A stretch of 64,000 bases of DNA from Armatimonadota bacterium (GTDB lineage: Bacteria > Armatimonadota > UBA5829), in assembly GCA_039679645.1 (NCBI GenBank), contig JBDKUO010000047.1:1-64000 (forward strand). The letters run 5' to 3'. This document shows, in pieces, positions 16,257 through 24,450 of this stretch (its first letter is position 1; each line of letters starts with the position of its first letter). A program made the position numbers and the translations under genes. Below the pieces are notes generated by a model. The model did no database searches. It was not told the DNA's origin and saw only the letters and a program-made list of their open reading frames with translations.

Positions 16257-16420
16257 GTTCACTAATAGTGAACAACATTTAACCAAAATACCATGGTCCG
16301 TTAACCACATTTTGGCTTAGAAGTCGTCTTATAATTATGGGAGACAAATATTTGCGGAGTCTCGGGGAAAGCCCGAGGCTCCTTTTTTTCGTCTCCCAAA
16401 ATATCTCAGGGAGGCTATCC
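16257..16420 (+). promoter_or_regulatory. Promoter-operator-hairpin leader, copy 2 (phage module)
   Basis: In order: dyad GTTCAC-N5-GTGAAC (16257-16273); arms CCAAAAT (16283-16289) and ATTTTGG (16309-16315), the second overlapping the -35; ACATTT (16307-16312) and TATAAT (16330-16335), spacer 17. The leader then has a strong hairpin (GGAG-CTCGGG, GAAA loop, CCCGAG-CTCC, about 16356-16382) followed by seven T. Around it GGGAGAC (16339-16345) can pair with GTCTCCC (16390-16396). The hairpin is terminator-like and lies before the ribosome site of the terminase small subunit gene, so read-through may be controlled. Confidence 0.7.
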
Positions 16421-16789
16421 ATGAAAGCAAGAAGACATACCGCTATTGAACTCTTGATGTGCCACTCGGACAGCATAGCAGCCGAAATGCTTGGAATCAG
16501 GTTGTCCACCCTGAGGCAATGGATGCGTGAAGAGAGCTTCATGGATGCTCTGCGAGAGCGAGAAAAGGAGCAGGCCGCAGGGTTTAGAAGACTTGCCCGT
16601 CAAGCGGCTCTAAACGCTGCCTCGGCGCTGTGCCGGATGACATCAGAGTCGGCTAAGACGGACGGTAAGGTCCTGCTCGAAATACTCAAGGCAAGCGGCG
16701 CATTCGAGACCCCCGATGTCGACCCAGGTGAAGCCCTTGCCGAGATAATCAGACGCGCTTCCGAGGATGACGATGAAGATGAAGACTGA
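16421..16789 (+). CDS. Phage terminase small subunit-like DNA-binding protein
   Basis: A 122-residue protein whose N-terminal third is a helix-turn-helix: AIELLMCHSDSIAAEMLGIRLSTLRQWMREESF. The helical middle AAGFRRLARQAALNAASALCRMT and an acidic tail (EDDDEDED) follow. This layout and its position directly before the large subunit fit a terminase small subunit that recognises the packaging site. The chosen ATG follows GGGAGG. A longer frame starting at 16337 would translate through the leader hairpin and is rejected. It overlaps the large subunit gene by 23 bases. Confidence 0.75.
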   Translation: MKARRHTAIELLMCHSDSIAAEMLGIRLSTLRQWMREESFMDALREREKEQAAGFRRLARQAALNAASALCRMTSESAKTDGKVLLEILKASGAFETPDVDPGEALAEIIRRASEDDDEDED

Positions 16790-18092
16790 CGCATCGAAAA
16801 GGCTCCGGCTGGCAAAGATACTTTGGGGCTGGAAGCCGCACAAGACCCAAAGACAGTGGATGCTCAACGAGGCAGAGGTCAAAGTCGCATCATGCGGCAG
16901 GCGCTGGGGCAAGACCGAGTCCGCCGCCATTGACGCCGCCACCATGGCTGTTTTCCATCCGGGCAGCGTGCAGATGATCGTCTCGGCTACTTATGACCAG
17001 GCCCGGTTGATATTCGACAGCGTAGAGCGGCTCGTCACCGGTTCGGAGCTTCTCAGACATGCCGCAAAAGTCGTGCGGACGCCGTACCCCAGGCTGACAT
17101 TGGGCAGGAGTATAATCACTGCGCGCACAGCCGACGAGGACGGCAGAAACCTGCGCGGCAACTCGGCGGATCGAATTATAGTAGATGAGGCGGCGTATGT
17201 GCGTGACTGCGTGATCCACGAAGTGATCTCGCCGATGCTTGCAGACCGTGACGGACGTCTGGTGATGATTTCGACCCCTTTCGGCAAGAATCACTTTTAC
17301 AGGGCATTCATGAGGGGAGCGGATGGATCAGGCAGCAAAAGGCATGCGTCATTCAGCTTTCCGTCCTGGGCAAACCCGCATATCAGCCGCGAGTATATAG
17401 ATCAGCAGAGACTCGAGATAAGCCCGAGGCAGTTCGCTGTCGAGTATGAGGCTGCTTTTATTGACGACCAGTGCAGCGTGTTCTCTTGGAAAGATATCGA
17501 GTCTGCCTCAACGCAGTCTGATACCGCGTCCACAAATATCGATTATGTGGTAGCCGGTATTGACTGGGCGCGCTATTCGGACTACACGGCGGTTGTCGCC
17601 ATGAGCGTGGGCGAGTCCGGCTGCGAGGTGATTGGTATCGACCGATTCAATTCTATGAGCTGGAGCAGCCAGATAGAGCGTGTTGTCGACTTTCTGAAGC
17701 GATATAGAGTCGGTTCGGCGCTTACGGACCAGACTTCTGTCGGCGACCCGCTCCTCGAACAGCTCAAATCCAGGCTCTGGGAGTGCGGCGCGGATATATC
17801 CGTGGAGGGTTACACTTTCACGAACCAGTCAAAGCGCGATTTGATTGAGAACCTCTCGCTTCAGTTTGCCCATAATGCAATCAAAATCCCGCGCGATGAG
17901 GCTCTTATGCGCGAGTTGCAATACTACGAATACGAGCTTACAGACTCGGGCAATGTGCGCATGAACGCTCGATCCGGCCACCACGATGACCTGGTGATTG
18001 CCATTGCTCTTGCCTGCCTGCAGGCAAAGTCATCCGGCTTTTCCGGAAGGTATCTGAGCAGGAACGGGAGGGTTGCTGTGGGGGGATGGTAA
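16767..18092 (+). CDS. Phage terminase large subunit (ATPase-nuclease)
   Basis: The motor that packages DNA into the prohead. The ATPase domain has the Walker A-like CGRRWGKT (about residues 43-50), the Walker B RIIVDEAAY (about 136-144) and the coupling segment MISTPFG. The nuclease domain has GIDWARYSDYTAVV with its first metal-binding Asp, LTDQTS, and GHHDDLVIAIALA near the end. At 441 residues it is close to the length of Mu gp28-like large subunits. All key acidic residues appear intact, so the gene is not obviously decayed. The start is one of several clustered ATG codons. Confidence 0.92.
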   Translation: MTMKMKTDASKRLRLAKILWGWKPHKTQRQWMLNEAEVKVASCGRRWGKTESAAIDAATMAVFHPGSVQMIVSATYDQARLIFDSVERLVTGSELLRHAAKVVRTPYPRLTLGRSIITARTADEDGRNLRGNSADRIIVDEAAYVRDCVIHEVISPMLADRDGRLVMISTPFGKNHFYRAFMRGADGSGSKRHASFSFPSWANPHISREYIDQQRLEISPRQFAVEYEAAFIDDQCSVFSWKDIESASTQSDTASTNIDYVVAGIDWARYSDYTAVVAMSVGESGCEVIGIDRFNSMSWSSQIERVVDFLKRYRVGSALTDQTSVGDPLLEQLKSRLWECGADISVEGYTFTNQSKRDLIENLSLQFAHNAIKIPRDEALMRELQYYEYELTDSGNVRMNARSGHHDDLVIAIALACLQAKSSGFSGRYLSRNGRVAVGGW

Positions 18093-18162
18093 CCTCGCTC
18101 TGCTATTGTTCCTTCCCAGAGTAGGTATAAGTAATACAACATAACTCTAGGAGGATCATATT

Positions 18163-18936
18163 ATGCCGAGCAACAATACTTCAAGCGCAGACAACATGAT
18201 GCGCGCAAGCGTGGCAGAGTTTATCGGGACTTTTATTCTAGTATTTGCAGGCACATCCGTAGCGACCTCAGCCATACTGGGTCGACCTATCGCGGGAGTG
18301 CCGCTCAACTCACTATCGGTAGGGCTTACATTCGGGCTGGTGCTGGTGGTGCTCGTAAGTACACTAGGCCACATATCGGGCGCGCACTTTAATCCCGCAG
18401 TCACTATCGGGCTGTACAGCATCGGGCGGTTTCCGGGAAAGTATGTCATAAGCTATATAATCGCACAGATTGCAGGAGCGATTGCTGCATCGCTGGCTGT
18501 GTGGGCTACCTTTGGAGACGCGGCCAGAAGCACAGCGTTTCTCGCAGCCACATACCCTACCGCCACAGCAAGCGAACTGCAGGCATTTCTGATGGAGGTG
18601 ATTATAGCATTCATCCTGCTCTTTACTATTGTCTCGATCTCGACAGACGAGCGGGCAAACGTGACTACAGCCAGTCTTGCAATTGGTTTCGCGCTGGGAG
18701 TCGGCGTGTTGATCGGCGGGCCGGTGAGTGGAGGGTCTGTGAACCCTGCTCGCACACTCGGCCCGATGATTGTATCAGGCAACTTCACCAGTGTATGGGT
18801 CTATCTGGTCGGCCCGATCGTCGGTGCTATCGTTGCGGCTCTGATCTATCACTACTTCATATTTGCCGCAAAGGCCCCTTTGCCTGAGGAGAGGACAGGC
18901 GTGATCGGCAGGACCGGGGAAGCGGGCGCTGCATAG
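18163..18936 (+). CDS. Aquaporin/glycerol facilitator (MIP family)
   Basis: A 257-residue six-helix channel protein with both NPA boxes intact: GAHFNPAVT (NPA at about residues 77-79) and GGSVNPARTLGP near residue 195. MIP channels conduct water, glycerol or small neutral solutes through the inner membrane. The gene has its own ribosome site (AGGAGG) and its own intrinsic terminator just downstream. It lies between the terminase and portal genes of a phage head module, an unusual place for an aquaporin. It may be cargo acquired by the phage or a later insertion. The coding sequence looks functional. Confidence 0.93.
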   Translation: MPSNNTSSADNMMRASVAEFIGTFILVFAGTSVATSAILGRPIAGVPLNSLSVGLTFGLVLVVLVSTLGHISGAHFNPAVTIGLYSIGRFPGKYVISYIIAQIAGAIAASLAVWATFGDAARSTAFLAATYPTATASELQAFLMEVIIAFILLFTIVSISTDERANVTTASLAIGFALGVGVLIGGPVSGGSVNPARTLGPMIVSGNFTSVWVYLVGPIVGAIVAALIYHYFIFAAKAPLPEERTGVIGRTGEAGAA

Positions 18937-18964
18937 CGCAAACAATTTTACAGTAATATTTGGC

Positions 18965-19001
18965 AAGCGCTCTTGTAGTCTATCTGCAGGGGCGCTTTTT
19001 T
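18965..19001 (+). terminator. Intrinsic terminator after the aquaporin gene
   Basis: AAGCGCTCTTG pairs with CAGGGGCGCTT (wobbles included) and is followed by six T. It lies about 30 bases past the aquaporin stop and upstream of the portal ribosome site, so the aquaporin would normally end the transcript coming from the terminase genes. Confidence 0.7.
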
Positions 19002-19043
19002 GTGCCTGATTTTAGCGTCAAATTTCCAAACAGGAGGCAGTGT

Positions 19044-20291
19044 ATGTCAAAATCGGTTCTAACCAAATTCAAGGATAAGCTCCGCTCCCGGAAGCCGCCG
19101 CCCTTAAACGAACTCGCATCAGCCAGAGGATCGATCACATCTGCTCTGGGTTCCATCTTGCCGTATAACCCCGATGACCTGATAGGCAAGCGCGGCTATG
19201 GCATCTACGATCAGATGCAGCGCGATGCCCAGGTGCAGGCGTGCCTGATGATCAAGAAGTTTGCCGTGCTCTCGCATGGCTGGGAAGTTCACCCGGCATC
19301 CAGCGACCTAAAGGACATTCGTGTAGCAGACTTCGTGCGCTGGGCGCTGGAGGATATGCGCGGCTCGATATTAGACGTGCTCTACAACGTCCTCGATGCG
19401 CTGGCAAAGGGCTTCAGTGTGATGGAGATCAACTATCGCGTGATCGAGGACTCGTCGTATGCTGGGATGATCGGACTCGCCTCGATCAAGAGCAAGGACC
19501 CGTCTACATTCACCTTCGATACAGACGAGTTCATGAATGTGCGGTCTCTTCACAGAAACAGTGGGTTCATTTCGGGAACAAGTTCCCGAAATACCGAGGG
19601 CAGGGGTGAGGGGTCACTTCCGCCGGAGAAGTTTGCGATCTACTCGTATCTGCCCAGGTATGAATCGCCTTATGGAACGTCGGACCTGCGCGCAGCCTAC
19701 AAGCACTTCTGGAGCAAGGACGTGCTGATGCGGTTCCTGAATGTCTATCTGGAAAAATACGGCTCGCCTACAGCTAAGGGCAGCTACAAAAGAGGCACAC
19801 CCAAGACGGCTCAGGATGACCTGCTGAAAATACTTGATAAGATTCAGCAGCAGACCGCTATCGTTATACCAGAGGACGTGCAGGTCGAGCTTATGGAGGC
19901 TCAACGCGGCGGCGAGGCGGGTTACCTGGACGCGATAGAGTTCCACGACAAGCAGATAGCCAAAGCAATTCTTGCTCAGACAATGGTGACTGACGAGGGC
20001 GCTCGCACCGGCTCATACGCTATGGCGAAAGTTCATCTGGACGTGCTCAAAATGTGCCTGCAAAAGCTCAAGCGTGACCTGGAAGAGAGCGTGATGCGCG
20101 AGCAGGTGATCAGGCGCTTGGTGGATTACAACTTCAACGTCAGCGCATACCCGACATTCAGCCTGGGGCCGCTGGAGGATAAAGACCTGGAATCGCTGTC
20201 GAATGCAGTCACAAAGCTTATTTCAGGCGAGGTGATCCGACCTAATGAGAGCTGGATACGGGAGTATCTGGGGCTGCCCACTGCGGCATAG
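19044..20291 (+). CDS. DUF935-type (Mu gp29-like) phage portal protein
   Basis: The portal forms the dodecameric ring through which DNA enters the capsid. Characteristic stretches include YGIYDQMQRDAQVQACLMIKKFAVLSHGWEVHP, LDALAKGFSVMEINYRV, LPPEKFAIYSYLPRYESPYGTSDLRAAY, KYGSPTAKGSYKRG and DEGARTGSYAMAKVHLDV. AGGAGG precedes the ATG at 19044. An upstream in-frame ATG at 18960 lies in the aquaporin terminator and is rejected. Near residue 180 a perfect hairpin repeat (19569-19592) encodes an extra segment GFISGTSSRNTEGRGEG that looks like an insertion in frame. The protein otherwise appears complete. Confidence 0.9.
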   Translation: MSKSVLTKFKDKLRSRKPPPLNELASARGSITSALGSILPYNPDDLIGKRGYGIYDQMQRDAQVQACLMIKKFAVLSHGWEVHPASSDLKDIRVADFVRWALEDMRGSILDVLYNVLDALAKGFSVMEINYRVIEDSSYAGMIGLASIKSKDPSTFTFDTDEFMNVRSLHRNSGFISGTSSRNTEGRGEGSLPPEKFAIYSYLPRYESPYGTSDLRAAYKHFWSKDVLMRFLNVYLEKYGSPTAKGSYKRGTPKTAQDDLLKILDKIQQQTAIVIPEDVQVELMEAQRGGEAGYLDAIEFHDKQIAKAILAQTMVTDEGARTGSYAMAKVHLDVLKMCLQKLKRDLEESVMREQVIRRLVDYNFNVSAYPTFSLGPLEDKDLESLSNAVTKLISGEVIRPNESWIREYLGLPTAA

Positions 20292-20317
20292 GCAGTAAAG
20301 GCTGAGAAAAATAGAGG

Positions 20318-20345
20318 TTGACATACTGATTTTTTGTGGTATATT
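20318..20345 (+). promoter_or_regulatory. Strong promoter of DUF3800-associated RNA 1
   Basis: A consensus TTGACA (20318-20323) and TATATT (20340-20345) are separated by 16 bases ending in GTGG. Transcription would begin near 20352, at the start of the hairpin-rich sequence and not at any coding frame. The promoter of the second cassette at 22037 has the same spacing and the same TGG-TATA junction. Confidence 0.75.
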
Positions 20346-20351
20346 AGTTTT

Positions 20352-20441
20352 GGCGACGTAAGTCCTACGTAAAGCGTGCCACCGGAAGGGTGTGCATAAG
20401 CTAGATGCAAGCTAGTCGCTCGTAGGAAGTCGCTGTTTTAT
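20352..20441 (+). ncRNA. Candidate structured RNA, DUF3800-associated, copy 1
   Basis: An RNA of about 90 bases is predicted. GCGAC (20353-20357) pairs with GTCGC (20429-20433) and TCCTACG (20363-20369) pairs with CGTAGGA (20421-20427), closing a multi-branched core. The core holds an imperfect GTGCCACC/GGGTGTGC hairpin and an AGCT/AGCT hairpin near 20399-20413. The closing helix is followed by TGTTTTATT, so it can double as its own terminator. That tail overlaps the stop codon of the DUF3800 gene on the other strand. Published comparative work described DUF3800-I to -XI RNA motifs near such genes. Whether this belongs to one of them needs a covariance-model search. Confidence 0.65.
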
Positions 20442-21088
20442 TGTACCACTGCAAAAAACAACCTCGTGCCGTTACCCAGAATTGGTTCCAAAGCTTTGTA
20501 ACCCTTGGAATCGCCACGTTCGTAGTGTCTGAAAATTGCATTCGCTACAAAATCTGCCACTTGAATGCCTAATGACTGCCGTGAATCTGGAAATGCCAAC
20601 TTAACACTAACCTGTGAGTTCATCTCGCACCAAAGCTTAATCCGCAGATACTCACACAGACTATTGCCGGATGCTACTTTTATGGTTCTGCAATCAAGGT
20701 GCACGTCAGCTTGATGAAGGGGACAGAGGAGAGGCGTTAGCAAAAGCCCGGTGACATAGTTATAAAGAATGTTTGTGTCCCGGCGCAACTCTGCTTTAAC
20801 TCTATTCTTATTAATCACAATATAGTGAACTGAGCAATTGAGCGACGAAAGCTTCTTGCAAAACAAATTTCTATCAGTTATTTTGCTTGAATTCGCTTTC
20901 AGTTCTGCTTCAAAAGGAATGTCGCGACTCGACTTGAAGCGGCGGACTAAGCGTTTCAAATGTTTTTGATCTCCATGATCTACACATACTGCAGCAATTA
21001 CGAAGTAGTGAGACGATCCATTACTGAAACCAAGATCGCCGGACTCGTCCAAGTAGAAAATGCAGTCATTTGAGTAATTGTTCAGCAT
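20438..21088 (-). CDS. DUF3800 protein, copy 1
   Basis: The 216-residue protein has the DUF3800 signature: FYLDESGDLGF near the start, the acidic segment FEAELKANS and the late motif SRQSLGIQVADFVANAIFRHY. The biochemical function is unknown, and the conserved acidic residues suggest a metal-dependent enzyme, which is inference. The gene is antisense to the phage head operon, between portal and protease genes, and is tail-to-tail with candidate RNA 1. Its codon use is AT-richer than the flanking phage genes, consistent with separate acquisition. No clear ribosome site precedes the ATG at 21088. Confidence 0.88.
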   Translation of the reverse strand: MLNNYSNDCIFYLDESGDLGFSNGSSHYFVIAAVCVDHGDQKHLKRLVRRFKSSRDIPFEAELKANSSKITDRNLFCKKLSSLNCSVHYIVINKNRVKAELRRDTNILYNYVTGLLLTPLLCPLHQADVHLDCRTIKVASGNSLCEYLRIKLWCEMNSQVSVKLAFPDSRQSLGIQVADFVANAIFRHYERGDSKGYKALEPILGNGTRLFFAVVQ

Positions 21089-21186
21089 GATGAGATTTTA
21101 TCACCATGAACAGTCACGTAGCAAGCAAACTTAATGAACCACCCATCATATTCTGACACGTAAACAGACTTTGAAAGGAGAAAAAT

Positions 21187-21936
21187 ATGACCACTAATAC
21201 AATCGAACGTGAAGCCAAGCTTTTTGAAGCCGGCGCGTACCCGGACAGGGGTATCGAAATTACAGAGGAGGACCTTGATTCGCTGATAGAAGGCACATGC
21301 AACGCACCGGTTCGGATCGAGCATACATCTACCCCGTTTGACGGCGCAATCGGTATGCTAAAGTCTGTCTATCGCAAGGGAAAGGAGCTTTTCGGCAAGC
21401 TGTGTTTTACGCGCGCTGCATGGGAACTTATCAAAGAGGCAAACGCAAAGCGGCTGTCTGTTGCGATCAAAAAGGACAAGAGCGGGATAGCCGAGGTGTC
21501 GCTCGTGCGTGAGCCGAGGATATCGGACGCAGCAGTCTTCAGCGCGGATGATACCGTTCGGATCGATGAGAGCGAGATTGCCGTAGATGCAGAATTTAGC
21601 TCTAGTTCTGATGATCCCGAGGTAGACAGACTCAGAGCTGAGCTTGCAGACAAGAATGCTCAGAGCAATATTGACGATCTAAAACGAGCTGGAAAGCTTA
21701 CACCTGCGTCCGAAGTCTTCGCAAAAGCCTTGCTTCGCTCAGAGGATTCTAATGTCATCACATTCGGCGGTTCGGCCACGCCTGTGAGCCAGGTCTTCAG
21801 ATGGTTTCTGGAGTCTCAGCCCAAGGGGATCGAGTTTTCAGAATTGGCCACTGCTGAGGCTGATGTCGATGAGCCTGAGATATTCGCGAAGCTGGGGGTT
21901 ACCAGCGGGCAGGTGGAGAGGTATCGGGGTAGATAG
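21187..21936 (+). CDS. Mu I-like prohead protease/scaffold protein
   Basis: A 249-residue protein resembling the Mu gpI-type protease: KLFEAGAYPDRGIEITEEDLDSLI, then PVRIEHTSTPFDGAIGML with a likely catalytic His in the first third, and a helical, acidic C-terminal scaffold region (SSDDPEVDRLRAELADKNAQSN). In this family the N-terminal protease matures the head and the C-terminal part acts as internal scaffold. The position before decoration and capsid genes agrees. It begins after TTTGAAAGGAG, a ribosome site repeated before the decoration and capsid genes. DUF3800 cassettes flank it on both sides. Confidence 0.8.
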   Translation: MTTNTIEREAKLFEAGAYPDRGIEITEEDLDSLIEGTCNAPVRIEHTSTPFDGAIGMLKSVYRKGKELFGKLCFTRAAWELIKEANAKRLSVAIKKDKSGIAEVSLVREPRISDAAVFSADDTVRIDESEIAVDAEFSSSSDDPEVDRLRAELADKNAQSNIDDLKRAGKLTPASEVFAKALLRSEDSNVITFGGSATPVSQVFRWFLESQPKGIEFSELATAEADVDEPEIFAKLGVTSGQVERYRGR

Positions 21937-22036
21937 CAAGCATACGCTTACCTCCTCGCCAATAGGCAGAAGTGCTTGTATGACGACATCGCGCGAAGGA
22001 TTGTTCAATTGTGGGTTGATACTCTCAAGATTAGGG

Positions 22037-22064
22037 TTGACTGCACAGATAATTATGGTATACT
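22037..22064 (+). promoter_or_regulatory. Strong promoter of DUF3800-associated RNA 2
   Basis: TTGACT (22037-22042) and TATACT (22059-22064) are separated by 16 bases ending in ATGG. It lies about 100 bases after the protease stop and directly before the hairpin-rich sequence. It has the same geometry as the promoter at 20318. Confidence 0.72.
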
Positions 22065-22175
22065 ACTATTGACAGTTGACAAAACTCGGCTCCATGCCGT
22101 GAGGTCCCGGTCTCCGGGAGACCCTATATCTACTGTCAATAGTGATGTATTGAAGCCGCGTCAAGCGGCTTTTCT
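22065..22175 (+). ncRNA. Candidate structured RNA, DUF3800-associated, copy 2
   Basis: A perfect 12-base inverted repeat, ACTATTGACAGT (22065-22076) and ACTGTCAATAGT (22132-22143), encloses an imperfect CTCGGC/GCCG-GAG hairpin (22085-22103) and a TCCCGG-TCT-CCGGGA hairpin (22105-22119), which can alternatively fold as GGTCTCC/GGAGACC. Transcription probably starts inside the left arm, near 22071. A terminator follows: AGCCGC-GTCAA-GCGGCT then TTTTCTTTT (22154-22177). The terminator lies inside the last codons of the opposite-strand DUF3800 gene. The primary sequence differs from copy 1, but the promoter, tail-to-tail layout and branched fold are alike. Confidence 0.65.
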
Positions 22176-22945
22176 TTTGTGTAGCGCACCCCTGTCTTGC
22201 CTTCTCGCGTATCATCGTAATCCCAGACGCAGTGGATTTGCGGCCACATCAATTGCGCATAACGGTCCTCGCCTTTTTCGTAGGCACGTTGAACAGCCCA
22301 AAGGAAGTAATCGGCAGCCTGTAGTTCAATCCGGTCTTTGGGGAAAGCCGCATGCACCTTGATGGAAGCGGATGGAACTATGCTGTTCTTTTTGCAATAC
22401 CTGCTTCTTGCTGCCTCAAGCGCAGACTGCAAGGCTCTGGTCCTGTCAGCTTTGCCTCTTCTGGCAAAAACAATCGAGTAGGCATCTTCACGATGCAGTT
22501 TATCGTGAAACAGGCTGCGAGTCAGACTATCGTATAGCTGGTTCTGGTTGTAAACATAATTAGGATGCAGCGATCTCCATTCGCTTACAATCCGCACGAC
22601 TTCGCGCTTGACTCGAACCACGGCATGAAACTTGATGTCGTGCTGCATTAGCAACTTAAAGAAATCACGCCTGACCTCACTTGGGTCATCTTTCGCGTGA
22701 AATGCGACAGCAGTCCTGCACTTAACAGGATCCAAGGAGGGCACACCTCGAAAGTATGGGTCTTCAAGTATCTGCTGTCGCAGCTCTTGTGCCTGCAGCG
22801 CAAGTCTCTTCGGGTCTTTCACGTGAACCATTCCAAGAATAAAGTACTTGGAGCAGCCTTCAGTTCCGACCAAGAGCTTACCGCGTCTTCCCCACAAGAC
22901 GCTGTCACCCGCTTCGTCAACGCAGTATTCGATCAAGGCAATCAA
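22136..22945 (-). CDS. DUF3800 protein, copy 2
   Basis: A 269-residue DUF3800 protein, only distantly similar to copy 1 but with the same hallmarks: IEYCVDEAGDSVLWG at the start, VAFHAKDDPSEVRRDFF in the middle and IELQAADYFLWAVQRAYE near the end. It extends about 35 residues past that motif, and the extension overlaps the terminator of candidate RNA 2. It probably starts at a TTG after GGAAAGG. Like copy 1 it is antisense to the phage operon, this time between protease and decoration protein genes. Function unknown. Confidence 0.86.
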   Translation of the reverse strand: MIALIEYCVDEAGDSVLWGRRGKLLVGTEGCSKYFILGMVHVKDPKRLALQAQELRQQILEDPYFRGVPSLDPVKCRTAVAFHAKDDPSEVRRDFFKLLMQHDIKFHAVVRVKREVVRIVSEWRSLHPNYVYNQNQLYDSLTRSLFHDKLHREDAYSIVFARRGKADRTRALQSALEAARSRYCKKNSIVPSASIKVHAAFPKDRIELQAADYFLWAVQRAYEKGEDRYAQLMWPQIHCVWDYDDTREGKTGVRYTKEKPLDAASIHHY

Positions 22946-23012
22946 CCTTTCCGTCAGGGGTATCAGAGGTAATCACCTCTCCCATATTCTATCACTTTGA
23001 AAGGAGCATACC

Positions 23013-23429
23013 ATGACAGCAACAACAACCGCAAGAGAAGCAAAGAGAAAGGACGGCGAGGTCATCTCATACCCGATGGCAGCCGTCAATATCCCCAAAG
23101 GAGCGCTGGTAAACATCAACGCAGCGGGCTACGCCACCAACTCGACCGACACAGCCGGTGAGACCTTCGCAGGTGTCGCTTATGAGACCGTGGACAACTC
23201 AGCAGGCACTGCAGGAGCGCTCAGCATCAGAGTCGAGACCGCAGGTACGTTTGTCTTCGTCGACGGTGGAGCCAACGGCGCTCAGACGGATGTCGGGGTC
23301 ACCTTCAAGGTTCAGGACAATCAGACCGTCACAGACGCCGCAACAACCAACAACATAGTAGCCGGGGTCGCGGTCGAGTCCATCTCGACAACCAGCGTCA
23401 GGGTCAGGATCGACCGTTACGCGAGTTAA
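23013..23429 (+). CDS. DUF2190-type capsid decoration protein
   Basis: A 138-residue, Ala/Thr/Val-rich protein. The pattern REAKRKDGEVISYPMAAVNIPKGALVNINAAGYATNSTDTAG...FAGVAYETVDNSAG is typical of the DUF2190/phage head stabilisation family that decorates the capsid surface. It lies directly before the major capsid gene, the usual place, and starts after TTTGAAAGGAG. No Cys and few bulky residues fit a small beta-rich structural protein. Confidence 0.82.
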   Translation: MTATTTAREAKRKDGEVISYPMAAVNIPKGALVNINAAGYATNSTDTAGETFAGVAYETVDNSAGTAGALSIRVETAGTFVFVDGGANGAQTDVGVTFKVQDNQTVTDAATTNNIVAGVAVESISTTSVRVRIDRYAS

Positions 23430-23434
23430 GAACC

Positions 23435-23532
23435 GTTATGTGTTATGAGTTCTGAGTTGTGTGTTCCTGGAGATACCACGCTTCCATAACACTCAGCACT
23501 TAACTCATAACTCGTAACCCACAACACATAAC
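23435..23532. repeat. Structured intergenic sequence before the capsid gene
   Basis: GTTATGTGTT (23435-23444) pairs perfectly with AACACATAAC (23523-23532). Inside, TTATGAGTT and AACTCATAA form a second pairing, with several near-repeats of CTCATAACTC. It fills the gap between the decoration and capsid genes and ends just before the capsid ribosome site. It could be a small inverted-repeat insertion or an mRNA processing/stability structure. Confidence 0.6.
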
Positions 23533-23553
23533 TTATTTTGAAAGGAGAACAAA

Positions 23554-24450
23554 ATGCCGCTTACAAAATCAGACATGCCCAATCTGCTTGAGGACGGGCT
23601 GAAAACAGTATTCTTCGAAGCAATGGACAACACAGTTGCCAACTACGAGCGCATCGCAACCATAGTGCCTTCCGAATCCGACGAGGAGGCTTACCCCTGG
23701 CTGGGAGCAGTTCCAAACATGCGGGAGTTCAAAGACGAGAGAATGCCCCTGGGACTGCTGGAGCACAGTTACTCCATCAAGAACAAGACCTGGGAGTCCT
23801 CCATCGCTGTCGAGCGAGAGGCCATTGAGGACGACAAGTTCGGCCAGATCAGACTGCGCGTTCAGTCCCTGGCTCGTGAGGCCAAGCGCCATATCGATGA
23901 GCTGGTCTTCACACTTCTGAAGAACGGTTTCAGCGCGGCCTGCTATGACGGCCAGTATTTCTTCGATACCGATCATTCCGAAGGCGAGAGCGGCACGCAG
24001 TCCAACAAAGGCACTACAGCTCTCGACGCGACAGCTCTGCAGGCAGCGATCACGGCTATGATGAAATATAAGGACGACCGCGGCAAGTTCCTCGGAATAG
24101 TGCCGGACCTGCTGGTCGTGCCGCCGGACCTGCAGTGGACAGCCATGGAGCTGCTGGAATCGACTTACTGGCCGACCGACAACACAAAGCAGGCTTCCAA
24201 TGTCCTTAAGGGCAAGCTCGATCTGCTGGTATCGCCGTACCTGACGGACACCAACGACTGGTTTGTCCTTTCGACCAAGGGTATAGTGAAGCCTGTGATC
24301 CTGCAGTCCAGGATGCCTATCGAGTTCGCAGCGCTCGAGGCCGACTCAGAGAGCGGCTTTATGCGCGATGAGTATATTTACGGCGTCCGCGCCCGCTACA
24401 ACGCAGGCTACGGACTCTGGCAGATGGCCTACGGAAGCCAAGCCTCCTAA
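23554..24450 (+). CDS. Mu gpT-like major capsid protein
   Basis: A 298-residue HK97-fold capsid protein of the Mu gpT type. Diagnostic segments: FFEAMDNTVANYERIATIVPSESDEEAYPWLGAVPNMREFKDERMP, WESSIAVEREAIEDDKFGQIRLRVQSLAREAKRHIDELVF, YDGQYFFDTDHSEGESGTQSNKGT and the C-terminal YGVRARYNAGYGLWQMAYGS. The full length and absence of frameshifts suggest it can still build shells. A terminator-like hairpin follows 45 bases downstream. Confidence 0.93.
   Translation: MPLTKSDMPNLLEDGLKTVFFEAMDNTVANYERIATIVPSESDEEAYPWLGAVPNMREFKDERMPLGLLEHSYSIKNKTWESSIAVEREAIEDDKFGQIRLRVQSLAREAKRHIDELVFTLLKNGFSAACYDGQYFFDTDHSEGESGTQSNKGTTALDATALQAAITAMMKYKDDRGKFLGIVPDLLVVPPDLQWTAMELLESTYWPTDNTKQASNVLKGKLDLLVSPYLTDTNDWFVLSTKGIVKPVILQSRMPIEFAALEADSESGFMRDEYIYGVRARYNAGYGLWQMAYGSQAS

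Follow-up and report, generated by a model that had tools for sequence, protein, structure and literature searches.

Structured RNAs convergent with two DUF3800 genes in a phage-like head gene cluster, and an uncatalogued RNA family that also occurs as lone copies in genomes and phages

The window, i.e., the 64,000-nucleotide stretch of an Armatimonadota contig analyzed here, carries a phage-like head gene cluster with genes for a terminase, a Mu-type portal, a protease-like protein, a cement-like protein and a Mu gpT-type capsid protein. Two minus-strand DUF3800 genes are located within this cluster, gene A between the portal and protease genes and gene B between the protease and cement genes, and each is faced by a structured RNA that is preceded by its own plus-strand promoter and runs into the 3' end of the gene. 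The question raised by this locus is what such RNAs do in relation to the DUF3800 proteins next to which they are encoded. The relevant features are as follows.

20292..21170, no strand assigned: insert A (approximate ends), between the portal and protease-like genes
20318..20345, plus strand: predicted RNA1 promoter, TTGACA-16-TATATT, with TG before the -10 box, 11/12 consensus matches
about 20352..20441, plus strand: RNA1, a self-closed branched RNA, ends placed from sequence
20438..21088, minus strand: DUF3800 gene A, 216 aa, Pfam DUF3800 match
22037..22064, plus strand: predicted RNA2 promoter, TTGACT-16-TATACT, with TG before the -10 box, 10/12 consensus matches
22071..22141, plus strand: RNA2 core, a three-way junction (P1-P2-P3) with ACAAAACTCGGCTCCATGCCGTG and CCTATA, predicted start
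22136..22945, minus strand: DUF3800 gene B, 269 aa, RNase HII-like, Pfam DUF3800 match
22152..22178, plus strand: RNA2 terminator hairpin and U-rich tail, within the last codons of gene B

The initial annotation, which described two DUF3800 genes tail-to-tail with promoter-driven, self-closed RNAs, is borne out by these data. Both products match Pfam DUF3800 (PF12686; curated cut-off 21), gene A with an E-value of 1.8e-17 (64.8 bits) and gene B with one of 3.8e-8 (34.6 bits), while both RNAs fold beyond their shuffled counterparts (RNA1, z -2.4 for 20350-20440; RNA2, z -5.1 for 22062-22155). The predicted terminators lie at the last codons of the DUF3800 genes, as had been proposed, and take two forms. 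RNA2 as a whole spans about 22071-22178 and consists of the three-way junction and, beyond it, a terminator hairpin of its own (22152-22172, an 8-pair stem followed by TCTTTTG), while the terminator-like part of RNA1 is its own closing stem plus a U-run, touching the stop codon of gene A. The transcript ends were placed from the promoter and the U-run for RNA1, and the start likewise from sequence for RNA2.

The two promoters named in the initial annotation are the two top-scoring promoter-like sites of the region. Among RNA2 homologues, a promoter is present at a fixed distance in 67% of linked copies (8% of shuffles), and terminator-like hairpins follow 41/76 linked copies (13% of shuffles). 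The geometry that had been taken as a shared hallmark fares less well: the 16-base spacer and the TG are indeed present in both cassettes, but among 71 promoters of RNA2 homologues 45 have a 17-base spacer and only four have TGG before the -10 box, so the common geometry merely reflects two good sigma-70-type promoters. Of note, the P1 inverted repeat of RNA2 (ACTATTGACAGT / ACTGTCAATAGT; window 22060-22145) reaches toward the -10 box, past the predicted transcript start; this extension is possibly an operator, or incidental.

Comparison with same-genus relatives, which possess the same head genes (portal 75-90% identical), revealed no match to the proteins of genes A and B, and both cassettes are inserts. 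At the site of insert A, the portal and protease genes of two relatives (L315 and L317) are separated by merely 30 and 28 nt, respectively, while the site of insert B is occupied in relatives by various other stretches, including a remnant of the N-terminal part of gene B in L322. Insert A is bracketed by a 10-nt direct repeat, GAGAAAAATA, at window positions 20304-20313 and 21178-21187, the latter copy being located just right of the approximate end of the insert, in the ribosome-binding region of the next gene; the repeat could be a target-site duplication or due to chance. Such observations would be expected of a selfish mobile insert whose nuclease aids moves into spacers between conserved genes and whose RNA is needed for movement, and the occurrence of inserts between restriction-modification genes also agrees with this. 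We nevertheless consider it improbable: the inserts showed neither a common target site nor a guide, RNA2 typically occurs as one copy per genome, and movement alone does not explain why structure is kept in the RNA-only copies described below.

The spacer between the protease-like and cement genes (window 21937-23012) carries opposite-strand cargo that differs between relatives and resembles an insert hot spot. The head cluster itself (window 16337-24450) looks vertically inherited. Its portal gene is present in one copy in each of the four same-genus genomes searched (75-90% identity) and, across the phylum, occurs in 126 of 291 genomes, mostly in single copy, a distribution that would fit a gene transfer agent or a domesticated phage.

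The RNA2 core was first recognized as an element common to homologues of gene B. Searches with a DNA pattern of the core alone, i.e., not requiring a DUF3800 gene, returned at least 121 genomic copies in at least 119 loci and a further 17 loci in viruses. In an alignment of 89 non-redundant sequences, all 14 P1/P3 pairs (nine in P1 and five in P3) have changed on both sides and 84% of the cells are paired, while double-change cells number 318, compared to 125 +/- 12 in shuffled and at most 119 in slid controls. The covariation that the initial annotation had proposed as a check is thus present in RNA2. P2 and CCTATA were set by the search pattern, so their constancy is uninformative, and the score of 66.7 bits that model R1 gives to the RNA2 core of the window is high by construction. 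The notion that RNA2 is a multi-copy repeat was rejected, as it is typically present as a single copy per genome.

For RNA1, the closest gene A homologue found (L011, 38% protein identity) is accompanied by a homologous RNA at 1386-1474, in the same convergent position. The two RNAs have 28 common pairs, of which seven are compensatory and none is broken. A model built on both copies (R2) returned only the same two copies, and none further, from 291 genomes, and a pattern search for RNA1 in viral contigs yielded no copies. The 14 covarying P1/P3 pairs of RNA2, together with the seven compensatory pairs of RNA1, indicate that the cassettes are more than a chance arrangement, as had been argued at the outset from their shared architecture.

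Like the window RNAs, the Rfam families DUF3800-VI (RF02915), DUF3800-VII (RF02967) and DUF3800-IX (RF02968) are small, self-closed, branched RNAs beside DUF3800 genes, and the proposal that the window RNAs are independent, promoter-driven transcripts of this same kind is supported, with transcription predicted from sequence. The families are nevertheless distinct: scanning RNA1 and RNA2 against Rfam, which had been suggested for the DUF3800 motifs, gave no match at the gathering score nor at an E-value of 10, and the RNA1 model misses the DUF3800-IX copies. RNA1 contains a hairpin resembling DUF3800-IX, and membership in that family was rejected since, although the hairpins are alike, the model match fails in both directions. 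As judged from these sequence comparisons, RNA2 is an uncatalogued RNA family conserved by structure and not by complementarity, and RNA1 is a second uncatalogued RNA type, whose structure is conserved with one other genome.

The association of RNA2 with DUF3800 follows a fixed layout. Among the genomic matches listed, 74 of 121 RNA2 copies abut a DUF3800 frame, with its end anywhere from 88 nt before to 121 nt after CCTATA, and one further listed copy has a DUF3800 fragment farther away. All 82 DUF3800 matches by RNA2 copies, again among the matches listed, are on the opposite strand. By the tabulated distances, the CTA of CCTATA constitutes the DUF3800 stop codon in 32 listed copies. Homologues of gene A are associated with DUF3800-IX (six loci) or DUF3800-VII (three loci) in the same convergent position as in the window; a search of the same phylum with the DUF3800-IX model retrieved exactly the same six loci, and in genomes from a second phylum four of seven DUF3800-IX copies have a convergent gene, while none is present in the fetched stretch for the other three. 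The agreement between the DUF3800-IX, DUF3800-VII and RNA2 layouts indicates that convergent order is a general rule for these families and not a coincidence of the window. The expectation that related DUF3800 genes have such RNAs beside them holds for these relatives of gene A, but not for many proteobacterial phage DUF3800 genes, alongside which no such RNA was seen; the DUF3800 protein therefore does not always need an RNA. In three phage loci (L277, L283 and L284), another convergent, similar-looking stretch, TACCGAATGACCTT...GTGGTGAA.GTACC, lies close to where the DUF3800 gene ends, downstream of a promoter-like site, and is perhaps a further RNA type.

In many loci, those of the window included, the RNA gene overlaps DUF3800 at its 3' end, which lends itself to the reading offered by the initial annotation, i.e., regulation of DUF3800 through base-pairing of the RNA with the 3' end of its mRNA. 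This function is very improbable in view of the data: the RNA structure is conserved by compensatory changes, the stop codon is located 11-24 nt beyond the junction in many loci, which places the folded core outside the coding region, and RNA-only copies with retained pairing occur where there is no DUF3800 gene to pair with.

The protein encoded by gene B (DUF3800-B) was modeled with a pLDDT of 93, and the nearest solved folds to this model are those of RNase HII and RNase H2A, with Z-scores of up to 10.5 (1eke_B: Z 10.5 over 170 residues, 4.3 A, 14% identity). A profile of 35 DUF3800-B sequences found no sequence match among solved chains at an E-value of 1. Residues D10, E11, G13, D14 and D212 are invariant in these 35 sequences, and the gene A product has the pattern DESGD...D132...D179, which is kept among its homologues. 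DUF3800-B and RNase HII have the DEAG motif start in common, the full motif being DEAGRG in RNase HII and DEAGD in DUF3800-B. The modeled fold is like that of RNase HII, a likeness that does not imply the same function; in combination with the invariant acidic residues, it indicates that DUF3800-B is probably active as a nuclease of the RNase H type. Published work already describes an RNase H fold in DUF3800 and places DUF3800 proteins among the accessory genes of some CRISPR loci (PMC10910872, PMC12669027).

These CRISPR loci (PMC10910872, PMC12669027), the fixed linkage of RNA and protein, and the fact that the RNase H-type fold is common to RNA-using nucleases such as Argonaute favor the main rival explanation, namely a ribonucleoprotein nuclease in which DUF3800 depends on the RNA, as scaffold or cofactor, for locating or cleaving its target. 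In OMEGA-type systems (IscB, TnpB) the RNA runs into the flanking DNA, which provides the guide. The RNA2 cassette, with its RNA ends placed from sequence, contains both a predicted promoter and a predicted terminator. The variable parts of RNA2 are covarying helices, with no variable unpaired guide stretch, and genomes and phages that do not encode the protein retain structure-keeping copies of the RNA; on these two grounds, a cofactor role is considered less likely than the antidote role described below.

Additional context is provided by the neighboring genes. Type I or III restriction-modification-like genes are located within 3.5 kb of 23/76 linked RNA2 cassettes and of 8/46 lone genomic copies, both being raw counts rather than enrichments. 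For example, in L119 the gene order is hsdS, DUF3800, RNA, hsdR. This setting resembles that of PrrC, a suicide RNase encoded within a type IC restriction operon (PMC3874165), and the anticodon nucleases PrrC and RloC have in common with the DUF3800 cassettes the presence of a nuclease gene in type I or III restriction operons. PrrC differs in possessing an ABC-ATPase domain and in being kept silent by the restriction enzyme to which it is linked (PMC2610378), while the DUF3800 protein resembles RNase H and is accompanied by an RNA.

The RNA-only copies are central to the interpretation. Among the matches listed, 36 lone genomic RNA2 copies whose 3' flank exceeds 800 nt have no DUF3800 gene; ten listed lone copies with 800 nt or less were left out of this count. 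A genome-wide search for a DUF3800 protein of the gene B type found none in 25 of 32 genomes with lone RNA2. Pairing is nevertheless kept, at 0.83 in lone genomic and 0.83 in lone viral copies compared to 0.86 in linked copies and about 0.57-0.63 in shuffled sequences, and the lone copies therefore are apparently under selection for structure; that they are decayed relics only was rejected on this basis. Part of them may be recent losses, as several lone genomic copies are flanked by DUF3800 scraps, corresponding to the C-terminus in L046, L061, L073 and L078, and in L083, L089 and L151 at contig ends, and to an internal portion in L158. No common partner gene was found beside the lone copies.

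In viruses, 15 of 16 records with RNA2 are devoid of DUF3800, although such records may be incomplete. One phage contig (L023:9952-10163, minus strand) carries an RNA2-type RNA, a so-called CCGAAC RNA and Rfam DUF3800-VI in tandem, and another (L041:3364-3558, minus strand) carries an RNA2-type and a CCGAAC RNA side by side, neither being associated with a DUF3800 gene. The CCGAAC RNA of both contigs is structured-looking and closed by GGGCCGGCCC, while DUF3800-VI is classed as Cis-reg by Rfam; the DUF3800-VII model gave no match in viral contigs. Elsewhere in phage, the RNA2-type RNA is preceded by a tRNA-Pro gene and by a tmRNA-like match that does not reach the gathering score (L026:520-793, with the same stretch in L038), or by a tRNA-Leu gene (L030), and two contigs with a lone RNA2-type RNA also carry type II hammerhead ribozyme matches (L028:1376-1434 and L037:8942-9008).

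The explanation that best fits these observations, held tentatively and at somewhat less than an even chance, is that a trans-acting RNA restrains an RNase HII-like DUF3800 protein and that phages carry the RNA as an antidote. The cassette would then be a two-gene module, comprising a DUF3800 nuclease and a convergent small RNA with a transcription unit of its own, in which the folded RNA may act in trans by binding the nuclease. The RNA would be an antidote that inhibits, rather than activates, a toxic nuclease, and the pair would constitute a defense or addiction module that enters phage-like and restriction-modification clusters, while phages possessing the RNA alone would use it as their own antidote. 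Inhibition is the best fit, given that genomes and phages devoid of the nuclease retain the RNA alone, which is expected of an antidote and not of a cofactor or a cis-antisense RNA. The array of different DUF3800-type RNAs in a phage, the restriction-modification neighbors with their resemblance to the PrrC setting, and the precedent of ToxIN were likewise counted in favor of this explanation. Alternatively, a lone phage RNA2 might help a DUF3800 protein of the host rather than inhibit it.

Type III toxin-antitoxin systems such as ToxIN offer an analogy, as they likewise pair a nuclease with a folded RNA. The ToxN fold is not of the RNase H type, unlike that of DUF3800-B. The RNA of ToxIN, ToxI, consists of tandem repeats and is encoded upstream of the toxin within the same operon (PMC5086642), whereas RNA2 is single and is encoded opposite its DUF3800 gene, at the 3' end of the latter, and a ToxIN-sensitive phage is known to escape through a pseudo-antitoxin RNA of its own (PMC5086642). 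A broader reading, in which dedicated folded RNAs keep RNase H-type effectors of the DUF3800 family in check and phages carry lone copies and rows of different DUF3800-type RNAs as counter-defense, is more doubtful than the antidote explanation for RNA2; that such modules would form a toxin-antidote class of their own, set apart from type III by fold, RNA and gene order, is part of this same reading and just as speculative.

DUF3800-linked RNAs as a kind are already known. Apparently new, relative to the literature compared, are the RNA2 family with its covariation and the RNA1 type, the recurrence in many loci of a convergent layout that overlaps the stop codon, the nesting in restriction-modification operons, and the RNA-only copies and the array in phages. 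The finding adds an uncatalogued and widely spread RNA family tied to a protein that resembles RNase HII and is encoded repeatedly within restriction-modification operons. If DUF3800 proteins are indeed effectors held by RNA, the DUF3800 RNA motifs would gain a common role. The question of what these RNAs do becomes testable, i.e., whether the RNA silences the nuclease and whether a phage-borne RNA defeats it.
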